From NCBI GenBank assembly GCA_019359175.1, contig JAHHHU010000015.1, positions 78,574-142,573 of the forward strand: a DNA stretch of 64,000 nucleotides, in the 5' to 3' direction. Under the pieces are notes generated by a model that had not been told where the DNA came from, made no database searches, and worked only from the letters and a program-made list of their open reading frames with translations. A program made the translations under genes and the position numbers. Source of the DNA: Phormidium tanganyikae FI6-MK23 (GTDB lineage Bacteria > Cyanobacteriota > Cyanobacteriia > Leptolyngbyales > Leptolyngbyaceae). Position 1 is the first letter of the stretch. Each line of letters begins with the position of its first letter. Of the stretch, positions 32,479 through 38,423 are shown piece by piece.

Positions 32479-33120
32479 TTAGATTTCTGCTGACTTTGAA
32501 AAGAGATAGTTTAGAGTTGGATAAATATCAAACCAAATTTTTTCTAACATTTCACGATCTCCATTCGCTGTAGATACTTGTACCCAGACACACCGCTGAT
32601 CGCGCAAACTCGTGGAACTGAATAGCCACAGAATAATGCGATCGGCGCGGATGTCATAAAGATTACGATTGCGGGCGAACTGAGTTCCCGTGAACGTGCT
32701 TTCGCCGCGTGGGTTAATGCAAGCGCTGAGATAAGAGCGGTTTTCAATCTTAAATAGTCCGTAAAACCCAACTTCCGCTTTTTGTCGAATAACAGGTGGT
32801 TGAACTAAAGATATCGATCTATAAACTTGAAGATATTCTTTAATATCTCCACTAGTATTCGTTAAATAAAGAACTTCAATGTCGATCTTGTTTTTATTCT
32901 GTTGATATTGATATTTTCTTCCACTTTGAAAAGTTTTTTGATTTTCATGAATCGCAACAGACTGTATTTTTGAGTTTGACAGTTCTATAAAGTGCGGAAT
33001 CTCAAATTTAAGAGCAGTTGAGTTGCTTTGATTGGGGCAAAAGATAGCTTTTATGCAGATTGAAGCCGTATTCAGGATAAGAACACTAATTAGTCCGAAT
33101 TTAAAGCGATCGAGATTCAT
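32479..33120 (-). CDS. Cyanoexosortase A system-associated protein
   Basis: 213 aa from ATG 33120 (the frame opens earlier inside the exosortase gene). One N-terminal TM (FKFGLISVLILNTASICI), then a periplasmic domain with the family pattern: GRKYQYQQ, IDIEVLYLTNTSGDIKEYL, FYGLFKIENRSYLSACINPRGESTF, LRDQRCVWVQVS, IWFDIYPTL. These proteins accompany cyanoexosortase A one to one, a role comparable to EpsI-like partners; the biochemical role is unknown. It overlaps the exosortase stop by 20 nt, so it is translationally coupled. Confidence 0.88.
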   Translation of the reverse strand: MNLDRFKFGLISVLILNTASICIKAIFCPNQSNSTALKFEIPHFIELSNSKIQSVAIHENQKTFQSGRKYQYQQNKNKIDIEVLYLTNTSGDIKEYLQVYRSISLVQPPVIRQKAEVGFYGLFKIENRSYLSACINPRGESTFTGTQFARNRNLYDIRADRIILWLFSSTSLRDQRCVWVQVSTANGDREMLEKIWFDIYPTLNYLFSKSAEI

Positions 33121-33901
33121 AAGTTGAAAGTAGAAACTGACAAGCAAGACTAAACAAAATAACTGCGATCGTCGAAAACACAAACGAACCATTTCCGACG
33201 TGCCAATACTCAAATGCTTTCTGATCTCCAAGCGCAACTAGAACTGCCATGAGTGCGACCCGGAGTGCATTGATGAGAAACGCGATCGTAACTGCAACTC
33301 CGGGAACTAGCAACTTTTGATAGTGCTGAGTAGGCTGAAGAAATAGATACATCAACGCAACGCCGAAAAGCTGTAGCATCGTTGCGACTCCTGCACATCC
33401 CGAATAAACCTCGATCGAGCCTTTCGGTAGACTGATGAGAACGTTTTGTACTGAAACCTGAAAACCTAAGCTCCACAAAGCAAATGCTGAAACTTGAGCA
33501 GTGAGCGGTGACGGATCAAAGAACAGCAAAATCAATCCTGGAGGAATCGCAAATACGAATAGAATTAGCAATTCTTGCCAGTATTGTTTTAGGTTCTTGA
33601 TGCCCGATGCGATGAGAGCGAGAGCAGCGATCGACAAAATTGGAAAAATCCTGAGAAAGATATCATTTCCAGAGATCGAAGCGCTTTTGCTCAAAACAGG
33701 AATCAGAATTAAAGTACCAAGTACGATCGAAGTTAGATCGCTGGAGAAAACAAGCTGCGAATGTTTTTGGCGCAGAATTAGAATCGCGGCTGACCAGTAT
33801 AAAAGACTAGAACCAATCAGATCAGTGTTGTCGCTTCTAAAAACAAGGCTAAGATGCAGCAGAATCAAAGCAGAAAGCAGTCCGAGCAATCCGTATCGCA
33901 T
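33101..33901 (-). CDS. crtA: Cyanoexosortase A
   Basis: 266 aa from ATG 33901; a GTG at 33970 with a GAGGTGAGG site would add 23 residues and is a fair alternative. Polytopic membrane transpeptidase with about eight TM segments. The exosortase triad is present: Cys in VYSGCAGVATMLQLFG, Arg in INALRVALMAVL and His in EYWHVGNGSFVF. Exosortases cleave the C-terminal PEP-CTERM signal of exported proteins. The gene lies about 110 nt downstream of a kinase/vWA protein with such a signal and is followed by its dedicated partner. The symbol crtA here means cyanoexosortase A, not a carotenoid gene. Confidence 0.9.
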   Translation of the reverse strand: MRYGLLGLLSALILLHLSLVFRSDNTDLIGSSLLYWSAAILILRQKHSQLVFSSDLTSIVLGTLILIPVLSKSASISGNDIFLRIFPILSIAALALIASGIKNLKQYWQELLILFVFAIPPGLILLFFDPSPLTAQVSAFALWSLGFQVSVQNVLISLPKGSIEVYSGCAGVATMLQLFGVALMYLFLQPTQHYQKLLVPGVAVTIAFLINALRVALMAVLVALGDQKAFEYWHVGNGSFVFSTIAVILFSLACQFLLSTYESRSL

Positions 33902-34012
33902 TTTAGAGTAATCATTCAGTAAAAAAGGGCACTTTGAGCAGGCAGAACGCGGAAAGATGACATCAAACACACCTCACCTCAAACCTATCCCAGTCGCACC
34001 CCAGAACAAGCT

Positions 34013-36940
34013 TTAATCTTTCACAACCTTCGCTCGTCGCCGCCCGAATCGCCACCACAAAAGCGCGATCGCAACAATACTTCCGGCAATTTCCGCAGGC
34101 TCAGGAACTTCTTGAGTCTGATTGCCCGGATTTGGTTGCATATTCGGTGGTAGTTCTACAGGAACATCAACCTTCTGACTCGAATTTGGCGCAACTCGCT
34201 GATTTTGGCTAACTGCAATAAAAGCAGTGTATTTCGACATCAACCGATAATCGAGTGCAGTATCAGTAATCGCTTTCACACCCGCGTCTGTTTCTTTGGC
34301 AAACATTTGATTTGATAGTTCTTTGATGCGCGATCGACCCCAAAGTTGAGCAATTCCACCTGATAGCGAATTCGTTGAATTTGCAGCAAAATCAACCGGA
34401 ACTGTTTTCTCAAACTTCGCGCCTCCTGCCGCAGTTCCGGTAATTTTCAGCATTCCATCAGTACGATCGCGCTTTTTGCCAAAAATCACGATCGGCTGAT
34501 TCGCGAATAAGTCGGGAATCTTTTGCGGATAGATTTCTGGGGCTTCTCCTGTGCCTTGCCAACTGACTTCGATGTTGGTTAATACAGGATTGTTAATTTG
34601 CTGGAAGAACTGTTCTACCGCTTTTCCAGACTGTCCTGGAAGCACAATCTGAGAAGTTCCGCGACCGAGTTCGGCAACTCGATCGATTAAGAACCGATTC
34701 ACCGAACTCCCGACCCCAAAGCTATACAGTCGATTTCCAGGCTTGAGATTTTTTTGAACTTCTGCAATTACACGCTCATCATCCCCGATCAAGCCATCGG
34801 TTAGCAAAACAACGCTGCGTAAACGTCCTTCTGGTGCAGGCGGGAACTTCATCACCTCTTGAATGCCGTTGAATAGTTCAGTGCCGCCATTTGCGCCGAT
34901 TTTGTTGATGTAGTCGATCGCGCGGTTGCGGTTCTCTGGTGTGTTCGCTAGAGGACTCTCAGAAAGCTTTTGAGTCGTACTTGCAAAGTCCATCAATGAA
35001 AACGTATCATTCGGGTTCAAGCCATTGATAAATCGTCGCATCAGGTCTTTTGAAGCTTGAATCGGTTCACCGGATTGTGAGCCAGAAGTATCAATTAGAA
35101 AGACTACATCTTTTGGAACAATTTCGCTTTGCTGATAGTTCACTGCAGGAATTAAATAACTGGCAAAATGTCCGCCACGCTGATCCACATCAGTTAGAGT
35201 TGTAGACTGTGCTTGTGTGTCTGAAACCTGGTACTGCAACACAAAATCTTTGTTTGGAATCGTGTTCTCATTTGCAAGTTGAATGCGAGTCGATCGACCT
35301 TCTGATTGAGCCTGAATTTGATGAGTTGTTGATCGAATCCCTTTGATCGGCACACCTGCATCAATCTCAACGGTCATTCCAATATTTTGTCCAGGACGCA
35401 TGACTGGAGTTGATGCGATCGCAGTTTTTACTCCATCGTTTGGATTGTACCGAGGTGCAACGACCATCGGAAATGAGAACTCATAGTTCCCTTTCTCAAA
35501 CTTCAGGCTTTCGGTGTATCGAATTTTGACATCAATTTTTTCACCCGGTTTAATGTTCGCAAGCGATTGTGTAAATACATTGTCGCGCTCTTGTTCAAGC
35601 AATCCTGCGGTTTTCCCTTCTTGTTTTGCCGCCTCAAACATCTGTTTTGCTTCTTGGCGCTTTTTGATCAAGCCGCGAATAATGCGATCGCCAACTCGAA
35701 TTTCCATGTCATCCACTGCCGCTTCATCAGGTAGCGGGAACAGATACACCGCTTCTAACGGTGTCGTAAAGGGATTCGTAAAGGTTTGCGTAACTTCCAC
35801 ACGCGACACATTACCCGTAACTCGCGCCATGACTTCCGTATGCTGCAATGGAAAGGATTGTTGTTCTCCGCTTTTGGTGCTGTATAACCCTGCGATCGTC
35901 GATTTGGGGGTGATCACATCTGGCGAAACTTGCTGAACGACCGGAGAAACGAAGGTTCTTAGCCCACCAAAAGCCGCGATCGTGACAACACCCGCGATGC
36001 TTGCAACTAGGTAGCGTTTCTTGAATCTTCTGGGCTTCGATCGAAGATCTTTGAGAACACTGTCAACAGTTGCATAACGCTTTGTTGTTCCACTTTCTAG
36101 CAGTTTGTCGAGAACAGTTCCGAGCCACTCGGTTACAATCTTTTTGTGCTTAAATCCATCATGCTTATTCAGATAGTGTCGCCACACCCATTTATTCTCA
36201 CCGCTATCGAACAATTCAAACGGTGATATCTGTGTGAGGAGATGAATGCAGGTTACGCCCAAACTGTAGAGATCGCTAGCATAAACCGCTTTGCCTCGAA
36301 CTTGTTCCGGTGCAGTGTACGCCGCAGAGCCAATCATTGTTCCGGTTTTGCCCAGTGTTGTCTCAGTCGTGTACTTTGCTGCACCAAAATCAACTAGAAC
36401 TAACTTACGATCGCTCGATCGACGCACAATGTTTTCCGGTTTGATGTCGCGATGAATCACTTGATGTTCATGCACAAATTTCAGAATCGGTAAAATGTCC
36501 TGCAATAGTTGTCGAATCTGAGTTTCGTTGAATGCTCCCACGTCTGCGAGTTCTTGCGCCAAGTTGCGACCATCAACAAATTCCTGCACTAGATACTGAT
36601 TTCCTTCTACCTCAAAATAGTTCAATAGCTTCGGGATTTGAGAATGTTGACCGAGCGTTTCAAGCCGTTGCGCTTCGAGTCGAAATAGTTCTGCTGCTTT
36701 ATCGGTGTTCGAGTGCGGATAGAATTGCTTGATCACACAGCGAGAATTCTCCACTTCATCGGTAACGAGTAATGTTCGCCCGAATCCGCCTTGACCGATT
36801 AAGCGAATCGCACGATATCGATCAAACAATAGTAACGGCGTTTCACAATCACAACACTGGAAAGCATTGAGCAGATTTTCAGGATGCTTGCAGGTGGGAT
36901 TAAAGCAGTGCGAAGTATAGGTCGAACTTGTAGTTTGCAT
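34013..36940 (-). CDS. Transmembrane Ser/Thr kinase with VIT and vWA domains and a PEP-CTERM tail
   Basis: 975 aa. Residues 1-36: Cys-rich CFNPTC...CCDC stretch common in cyanobacterial kinases. Kinase domain 41-300: GQGGFG loop, VIKQF lysine, HRDIKPENIV catalytic loop, DFGAAK; all key residues present. TM near 309-328 (RYLVASIAGVVTIAAFGG). VIT domain about 360-500. vWA about 605-785 with a MIDAS motif DTSGSQSG and LTDGLIGDD. A Pro/Asn-rich linker ends in VPEPAEIAG + hydrophobic helix + GRRRAK, a PEP-CTERM sorting signal. Predicted topology: cytosolic kinase, vWA outside, second TM removed or processed by the exosortase. It is encoded just upstream of that exosortase on the same strand. Ligand and substrate are unknown. 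Confidence 0.92.
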   Translation of the reverse strand: MQTTSSTYTSHCFNPTCKHPENLLNAFQCCDCETPLLLFDRYRAIRLIGQGGFGRTLLVTDEVENSRCVIKQFYPHSNTDKAAELFRLEAQRLETLGQHSQIPKLLNYFEVEGNQYLVQEFVDGRNLAQELADVGAFNETQIRQLLQDILPILKFVHEHQVIHRDIKPENIVRRSSDRKLVLVDFGAAKYTTETTLGKTGTMIGSAAYTAPEQVRGKAVYASDLYSLGVTCIHLLTQISPFELFDSGENKWVWRHYLNKHDGFKHKKIVTEWLGTVLDKLLESGTTKRYATVDSVLKDLRSKPRRFKKRYLVASIAGVVTIAAFGGLRTFVSPVVQQVSPDVITPKSTIAGLYSTKSGEQQSFPLQHTEVMARVTGNVSRVEVTQTFTNPFTTPLEAVYLFPLPDEAAVDDMEIRVGDRIIRGLIKKRQEAKQMFEAAKQEGKTAGLLEQERDNVFTQSLANIKPGEKIDVKIRYTESLKFEKGNYEFSFPMVVAPRYNPNDGVKTAIASTPVMRPGQNIGMTVEIDAGVPIKGIRSTTHQIQAQSEGRSTRIQLANENTIPNKDFVLQYQVSDTQAQSTTLTDVDQRGGHFASYLIPAVNYQQSEIVPKDVVFLIDTSGSQSGEPIQASKDLMRRFINGLNPNDTFSLMDFASTTQKLSESPLANTPENRNRAIDYINKIGANGGTELFNGIQEVMKFPPAPEGRLRSVVLLTDGLIGDDERVIAEVQKNLKPGNRLYSFGVGSSVNRFLIDRVAELGRGTSQIVLPGQSGKAVEQFFQQINNPVLTNIEVSWQGTGEAPEIYPQKIPDLFANQPIVIFGKKRDRTDGMLKITGTAAGGAKFEKTVPVDFAANSTNSLSGGIAQLWGRSRIKELSNQMFAKETDAGVKAITDTALDYRLMSKYTAFIAVSQNQRVAPNSSQKVDVPVELPPNMQPNPGNQTQEVPEPAEIAGSIVAIALLWWRFGRRRAKVVKD

Positions 36941-37175: not shown

Positions 37176-38423
37176 ATGGATGTGGAGAGTGCGATCTCGC
37201 TTGCGGATGAGCTAATCTTCAAGTCGAGCGGGAAATCGATGAATGATTTGCAGCGCATTGTGTTTCGCGGTGCGTGGCAGGGAAAAAGCTTCACGGAGAT
37301 TCATCAAGATTGCCGCGATCGCTGTGGACTGGATCATCTGATGCGAAATGTCGGCCCTGAATTATGGAAATTGCTCTCTGAAGCGACAGGAACCAAGGTA
37401 ACGAAGAATTACCTTCAAGGTGCATTCTCAAAACTCAGAACTGAATCTGTGAGCGATCAGGTGTATGTCGATCGTGTTCCCTTCGAGCAAGAATGCTACG
37501 CGGAAATTCTCAAACCGGGTGCATTAATCCGAATCCGAGCGGCTCAAGATATGGGAAAAACTTGGCTCATGGAACAGGTTCTTAGTCACGCTCGCCAAAA
37601 TGGTTATCGAACTCAAGCGTTTAACTTTGAGCTTTGTGATAGTACAGTCTTAACGGACTTGAATAAGTTCTCTCAATGGTTTTGTGCAAGTATTGCCCAT
37701 GCTATTGGCTTACCGAATCGTTTATCTGATTACTGGGTTGATATTTTCGGATGTAACTACAACAGTACTTTGTATTTCGAGAACTATTTACTTCAGCAGA
37801 TCGAGACTCCGATTGTTCTCGCACTCGATAAAGTCGATATTGTGTTTGAACATAGTGCGATCGCGACTGATTTCTGTGCGCTTCTTAGAGGCTGGAATCA
37901 ACGCGCCATGCAGGGTGACGAGATTGGCGCGATCTGGAAAAAGCTAAGATTGATCATTGTGCATTCCACCGAAGTTTACGGCAATTTGGATATCAATCAT
38001 TCCCCGATCGGCGGTGTTGGTTTGATTGTAAAACTGCCAGAATTTAATCGCGAGCAAGTGCAAGAACTATTGAATCGATATCAACTCGATTGGAAGCTCG
38101 ATCGCTTAATGAATCTCGTCGGGGGTCATCCTTATTTAATCCAACACGCAATCAAACAAAAACTATCGCTTGATCAATTGCTTCAATCTGCCGCAACCGA
38201 ATCGGGAATTTATAGCGACCATCTCCGAAGACATTGGGCACAGTTACAACAGACAGCGAATCTTGCGATCGCATTCAAACAAGTCATTTCATCGATCGAA
38301 CCCGTTCCACTTGATCCACTGCAAGCTTTTAAGCTCGAAAGTATGGGACTGGTGCATCTACAAGGAAATGCAGCGATTCCGCGCTGTGAACTTTATCGGC
38401 AATATTTTCTCGATCGACTTTAG
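37176..38423 (+). CDS. vMAP-type HTH plus AAA-like ATPase protein
   Basis: 415 aa, cytosolic. Residues 1-95 resemble the helical/HTH domain of vWA-MoxR-associated proteins (ISLADELIFKSSGK, LQRIVFRGAWQGKSFTEI, NVGPELWKLLSEATG). Residues 100-415 are an AAA-like (AAA_35 type) NTPase with Walker A AAQDMGKTW (first Gly missing) and a C-terminal GGHPYLIQHAI sensor region. The usual Walker B LDEVD reads ALDKVD, so the catalytic Glu is Lys near residue 219, which predicts binding without normal hydrolysis. Divergent from the kinase-vWA gene with a 235-nt shared promoter region. Stop overlaps the convergent oxygenase gene by 4 nt. Confidence 0.75.
   Translation: MDVESAISLADELIFKSSGKSMNDLQRIVFRGAWQGKSFTEIHQDCRDRCGLDHLMRNVGPELWKLLSEATGTKVTKNYLQGAFSKLRTESVSDQVYVDRVPFEQECYAEILKPGALIRIRAAQDMGKTWLMEQVLSHARQNGYRTQAFNFELCDSTVLTDLNKFSQWFCASIAHAIGLPNRLSDYWVDIFGCNYNSTLYFENYLLQQIETPIVLALDKVDIVFEHSAIATDFCALLRGWNQRAMQGDEIGAIWKKLRLIIVHSTEVYGNLDINHSPIGGVGLIVKLPEFNREQVQELLNRYQLDWKLDRLMNLVGGHPYLIQHAIKQKLSLDQLLQSAATESGIYSDHLRRHWAQLQQTANLAIAFKQVISSIEPVPLDPLQAFKLESMGLVHLQGNAAIPRCELYRQYFLDRL

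Follow-up and report, generated by a model that had tools for sequence, protein, structure and literature searches.

The window analysed here, a stretch of 64,000 nucleotides from contig JAHHHU010000015.1 of Phormidium tanganyikae FI6-MK23, carries on its minus strand the gene for a 975-residue protein (34013..36940; open reading frame and domain searches) in which a Ser/Thr kinase, a transmembrane (TM) helix, a VIT domain, a vWA domain and a PEP-CTERM tail are joined, with two further genes behind it, one for a cyanoexosortase A (CrtA) and one for the protein associated with that enzyme. The kinase fusion is likely an exosortase substrate and, as far as comparison of sequences can tell, probably a dedicated substrate of the neighbouring CrtA. 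What we rely on was all computed: the domains and the conservation of their catalytic residues, the tail, the linkage of the genes, a CrtA clade of its own and the co-occurrence of kinase and enzyme. The initial annotation of the window had already named the kinase a likely exosortase substrate, and this is borne out by the tail family, by the CrtA clade, by linkage kept through rearrangement and by one genome, G211, where the fusion is the only PEP-CTERM protein detected; the clade, the conservation through rearrangement and G211 make the link stronger than had been claimed. Homologues were sampled from the VIT proteins of 292 genomes of the phylum, 42 genomes of the order and, from a scan of 84,980 species, the 80 top-ranking loci. 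Eighteen kinase-VIT-vWA fusions were found, 16 of which were aligned for residue conservation, and counts among them are non-independent because the fusions are related to one another.

The C-terminal tail of the kinase fusion

A PEP motif (as VPEP), a hydrophobic helix and a basic cluster (RRR) are all present at the C-terminus of the window protein (34016..34108, minus strand), residues 945-971 of which read VPEPAEIAGSIVAIALLWWRFGRRRAK. The initial annotation had named PEP-CTERM models as a check on this tail; the family indeed matches TIGR02595, while the window copy scores between 14.7 and 16.9 bits depending on the length submitted, and 15.3 bits in a genome search, around the cut-off of 16. 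Tails of close homologues reach 17.4-18.1 bits and that of G211 23.9-24.6, with 10.8 for G300 and 13.5 for G229. All 18 fusions end in the tail, which is absent from about 65 cyanobacterial VIT-vWA relatives that have no kinase and whose C-terminus is another conserved end. Among 489 distinct open reading frames of at least 300 residues in the 80 related loci, ten have PEP-like tails and all ten are kinase fusions, none of the five other kinases in these loci having one. By a Fisher test, tail and fusion are associated at 6e-18, a value that ignores relatedness and is not relied on. Homologues lying beside exosortase genes keep the tail, although the initial annotation had allowed for the opposite as a case against its proposal.

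Within the 16 aligned fusions PEP is invariant, whereas the linker that precedes it varies in length and sequence; in the window protein this linker (residues 918-944; 34109..34189, minus strand) is predicted to be disordered (pLDDT about 30). Invariance inside a freely varying linker is telling for a real signal, despite the relatedness of the fusions. The tail might instead be a mere second membrane anchor, PEP-CTERM-like by convergence, with the adjacent exosortase acting on other proteins. The borderline score of the window copy would suit such an anchor, but the constancy of PEP in an otherwise free linker and the lack of any such anchor in the non-fused VIT-vWA proteins do not, and we regard convergence as unlikely. 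Comparison across homologues appears to settle most of the doubt about the tail as a sorting signal.

The window protein departs from the typical PEP-CTERM layout in that a kinase occupies its N-terminus, followed by a signal-anchor-like TM segment at residues 311-329, with no cleavable signal peptide. Among PEP-CTERM members 97% have an N-terminal signal peptide and no internal TM segment, with one integral-membrane exception (PMC1569441).

The kinase-free cyanobacterial VIT-vWA proteins (L138-L180) are of two kinds, with or without an N-terminal signal-like segment, and some of them may be cytosolic. That every VIT-vWA protein of cyanobacteria might be a substrate of an exosortase was considered and rejected, since the kinase-free ones do not carry the tail and a signal peptide is missing from some of them.

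Gene linkage and the kinase-linked CrtA clade

The crtA gene (33101..33901, minus strand) scores 231 bits against TIGR03763 (cut-off 150); its reading frame opens at GTG 33970, and the starts of homologues align to ATG 33901. The catalytic Cys, Arg and His are present in the alignment, within YSGCAG, NALR and WHVGNG. The gene for the cyanoexosortase A system-associated protein (32479..33120, minus strand; TIGR04153 139 bits, cut-off 100) overlaps crtA by 20 nt, from its ATG at 33120 to the end of the crtA stop codon at 33101. Scores and coordinates therefore agree with the initial annotation, which had placed this overlapping pair after the kinase. The associated protein is modelled with an N-terminal TM helix and a mixed alpha/beta domain (mean pLDDT 70). 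A fold search with this protein returned nothing significant (lowest E 0.04; a weak hit to MucB, probability 0.93, E 0.11), and we assign it no function.

Across the 292 genomes of the phylum, comparison of VIT and CrtA gene coordinates gave the window's pair as the only one within a few kb. Among the fusions, 12 of 18 adjoin the crtA-associated-protein gene pair or its remnant at a contig edge. Within the window's genus the fusion is present in 5 of 8 genomes; in these five, as in G300, the kinase gene is followed by crtA and then by the associated-protein gene, all in one direction. The crtA genes are instead convergent beside the kinase in Microseira wollei, two Oscillatoria, a Prochloraceae metagenome-assembled genome (MAG) and UBA8803, and a Xenococcaceae MAG has the convergent arrangement at a contig edge, with the associated protein only. 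Since orientation differs among lineages, linkage as one inherited operon was rejected; that the genes stay adjacent despite rearrangement speaks for a functional link between kinase and crtA, and the survival of this adjacency through inversion, together with the matching CrtA clade described below, counts against the tail being a second anchor. Close linkage and co-evolution would suit equally well a kinase that controls CrtA and the associated protein, perhaps through phosphorylation of one of the two, the tail being then a docking element and not a processed signal. The full sorting-signal anatomy is nonetheless kept, with PEP at the predicted membrane edge, which a docking helix would not need, and we hold this regulatory role to be highly improbable. 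Both of these Oscillatoria have, immediately upstream of crtA and co-directional with it, a gene for a penicillin-binding protein (L137:12331-14661, L186:7678-10134; PF00912 and PF00905, searched in L137).

In a CrtA tree of 78 rows, rooted with CrtB and CrtC, the 11 kinase-linked CrtAs fall together with that of the Xenococcaceae genome (L184) and that of G211, a clade of 13 members (94/96). The 63 other CrtAs lie outside it, even where they are the second or third copy in a genome with a CrtA inside the clade. Three genus members that have no kinase fusion (G308, G311, G312) do have CrtAs, none of them in the clade. Prochloraceae and G211 are sisters in the VIT-vWA tree (97/94) and, weakly, in that of CrtA; the kinase-domain tree was poorly resolved and is not used as an argument for co-evolution. 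The window genome encodes four exosortases, namely two CrtA, one CrtB and one CrtC (G000 C5 (L088), C6, C4 (L089)), and its second CrtA adjoins an ordinary PEP-CTERM protein (TIGR04155 33 bits). By profile-model searches of contigs, from which all counts of PEP-CTERM proteins per genome derive, it has about eight other PEP-CTERM proteins, and those read have ordinary signal-peptide-like N-termini. Such proteins would provide an exosortase with the other substrates that the second-anchor explanation supposes.

These same proteins would also be the bulk traffic of another scheme, where the kinase monitors sorting: an unprocessed tail would signal a shortage of exosortase, and phosphorylated targets would adjust bulk PEP-CTERM export. 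Kinase and sorting genes do form one unit, and most carrier genomes also have CrtB or more CrtAs, but the linked CrtA belongs to a different clade from the general CrtAs. G211 offers the clearest example of the proposed dedication. Its genome is 100% complete and has a single match to TIGR02595, the kinase fusion; a search with the TIGR04155 model gave no match and no CrtB was found; the only CrtA falls in the kinase-linked clade, its gene overlapping that of the associated protein. The other exosortase of G211 is a CrtC, beside its own PTPA-CTERM protein (C85, L297:3278-5725). As far as the models see, the G211 CrtA would thus have one substrate, the kinase, and a single detected PEP-CTERM protein speaks against a monitor of bulk traffic, which we consider improbable. 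A CrtA with no other detected PEP-CTERM substrate is likewise difficult to reconcile with an exosortase that leaves the kinase tail alone as an anchor.

Several observations weigh against the kinase being a dedicated substrate of CrtA. The tail of the window copy, taken alone, is borderline, lying at the TIGR02595 cut-off. The kinase-linked CrtA clade was sampled partly via the kinase, and the G211 CrtA sits on a long branch, its TIGR03763 score of 138 bits being below the cut-off. For five fusions the clade holds no detected partner. One of these is Symploca L144, whose tail is type I-like and whose assembly contains no CrtA of the clade; its kinase gene lies 1.4 kb from a contig end. Four fusions, from G229, Oscillatoria SIO1A7 and two Okeania, carry a different tail, PEPSFxxAxLxFGxxxGWK, which we call type II; all four genomes have CrtB, and the two Okeania genomes are without CrtA, a circumstance that also favours the second-anchor explanation. 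Finally, in N. punctiforme, whose CrtB system is described without a mapped cut, peptides of the PEP-CTERM domain were detected in neither strain (PMC12188702).

The type II fusions may form a separate system served by CrtB, so that a kinase with its own CrtA would hold for part of the family, and we find the case for this evenly balanced. It is favoured by CrtB in four of four genomes, by the absence of CrtA from the two Okeania, by the VIT-vWA domains of type II, which form one clade (100/99), and by a TIGR02921 gene that comes directly after the fusion in G229 and Oscillatoria SIO1A7. Such a system would leave the proposed pairing with CrtA intact for type I, which includes the window protein. 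These tandems, each of two co-directional genes for VIT proteins of exosortase-substrate type, kinase-VIT-vWA-PEP and TIGR02921 (multi-TM, VIT, PEP-CTERM), lie at L057:4112-10515 and L194:6846-13811, and both genomes bearing them have another TIGR02921 copy elsewhere.

Domain architecture and possible consequences of sorting

The kinase motifs, TM segment, VIT domain, vWA domain with MIDAS and VPEP-helix-RRR tail that had been read from the sequence at the outset agree with domain searches and hydropathy. All features of the protein lie on the minus strand. An N-terminal prefix of four cysteines (C12, C17, C29, C32; 36845..36907), invariant in 16 homologues, recalls the 4-Cys prefix kinases of NF045510, which the window protein matches at 15.8 bits (cut-off 24) and three homologues at 28-39.7. 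The Ser/Thr kinase domain (residues 42-290; 36071..36817; PF00069 142.6 bits) has a PknB-like fold, and its catalytic K71, E89, HRD 163-165, N170, DFG 184-186 and PE 211-212 are invariant across the 16 fused homologues. Helix 1 (residues 311-329; 35954..36010) coincides with the hydropathy maximum, is modelled by AlphaFold as a helix at 310-325, and has a net charge of +7 immediately N-terminal to it, with RRFKKR just before it on the predicted cytosolic side. Beyond it lie the VIT domain (residues 365-475; 35516..35848; PF08487 129.3 bits) and the vWA domain (residues 611-764; 34649..35110; VWA_3 PF13768 74.5 bits), whose MIDAS residues, D617-x-S619-x-S621 and D715, are intact and invariant in the same 16 homologues. 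In a fold search the VIT-vWA unit matches the ITIH1 structure 6fpy (E 5.7e-34). The AlphaFold model, of moderate confidence (mean pLDDT 69), comprises a PknB-like kinase, a disordered stretch (918-948) and, last, a helix over residues 949-974.

From the charges, by the positive-inside rule, we infer that the kinase and the end of the tail are inside and VIT-vWA outside. The kinase would then lie in the cytosol and helix 1 would span the inner membrane, with VIT-vWA, which has the fold of the inter-alpha-trypsin heavy chains, in the periplasm and the PEP-CTERM helix re-entering the membrane so that its arginines lie on the inner side. CrtA and its associated protein would recognise the PEP motif and remove the C-terminal helix, and the new C-terminus would be either freed or joined to an acceptor, which may belong to the envelope or be a polysaccharide. 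Since helix 1 is not removed, the product would remain a membrane kinase, and its outer domain, previously held at both ends, would become free or envelope-tethered; ligand or load on the vWA domain could then be read out as cytosolic phosphorylation. The cleavage, its acceptor and the control of the kinase by sorting are likewise inferred. That processing moves the outer domain from a membrane-anchored to an envelope-tethered state and thereby sets kinase output, sorting becoming a step of signal transduction, is a tentative suggestion.

Divergently upstream of the kinase, a gene with an AAA_35 domain (PF14516; window positions 37176-38423, plus strand) recurs, the same by sequence, in a genus relative (L097:5445-6719) and in G300 (L102:3-725), and its product is a possible regulator or partner. 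The fusion is broken across frames in G300 (L102:1165-4381) and UBA8803 (L189:6885-9883; ambiguous bases), through sequencing errors or decay.

Comparison with known systems

Among the papers available for searching, none joins an exosortase with a VIT domain or with a Ser/Thr kinase. Exosortases acting on VIT proteins are nonetheless already known from two families, TIGR02921 and TIGR04477, and none was found with a kinase. The initial annotation described exosortase substrates as normally passive exported proteins, which is overstated, as the polytopic TIGR02921 is common in cyanobacteria and NCBI names a VIT protein of the XrtN system. TIGR02921 (PEP-CTERM integral membrane, cyanobacteria and others) resembles the window protein in being membrane-spanning and in having a VIT domain, a PEP-CTERM tail (at the end of 20 of 21 cyanobacterial copies inspected) and, in our own reading, a vWA-like region; it differs in its N-terminal bundle of TM helices and in having no kinase. 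Searched up to E = 1, the window protein did not match this family, and relatives score about 15-16 bits (cut-off 200). TIGR04477, the XrtN system VIT domain-containing protein in the NCBI name, is likewise a VIT protein named as target of a specific exosortase, with which it is paired one-to-one, XrtN being an enzyme of Bacteroidetes. Exosortase and architecture differ there, the enzyme being XrtN and a kinase being absent, and the window protein had no match up to E = 1 (cut-off 250). The parallel to a marine sortase drawn in the initial annotation stands in part: the target family TIGR03788 of marine proteobacteria has a homologous VIT-vWA body of about 600 residues, and the window protein matches it at 481.2 bits, below the cut-off of 551.65, and is therefore a relative and not a member. 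The enzyme in that system is moreover a sortase, not an exosortase, and there is no kinase.

The CrtB of N. punctiforme, essential for motility and biofilm and the subject of the only experimental study of a cyanoexosortase that we found, is also a cyanoexosortase acting on PEP-CTERM proteins, but there one enzyme has 35 putative substrates with signal peptides, and the word kinase is absent from the paper (PMC12188702). ITIH1 and ITIH4 share the VIT-vWA fold (E 5.7e-34 for 6fpy; 1.6e-33 by sequence for ITIH4) and differ in being animal plasma proteins with neither kinase nor exosortase. Inter-alpha-trypsin heavy chains lose a C-terminal propeptide and gain there an ester link to polysaccharide, an analogy that is a lead and not evidence. 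Transmembrane Ser/Thr kinases of the PknB type, which have a single TM segment and an extracytoplasmic sensor, share the kinase fold, but their sensor is PASTA instead of VIT-vWA and they are not known to have a C-terminal sorting signal.

Against this background, our best reading is an exosortase dedicated to one protein, with a transmembrane kinase as that substrate. Exosortases are known from gene context and mutant phenotype, and a system of one enzyme, one partner and one substrate would be the simplest in which to map the cut and the acceptor, with genomes such as G211, where a single PEP-CTERM protein is detected, as natural minimal systems. If the reading is correct, the 4-Cys kinases of cyanobacteria would gain a sensor on the outside and be physically connected to the envelope, and exosortase biology would widen from matrix proteins to signalling receptors.

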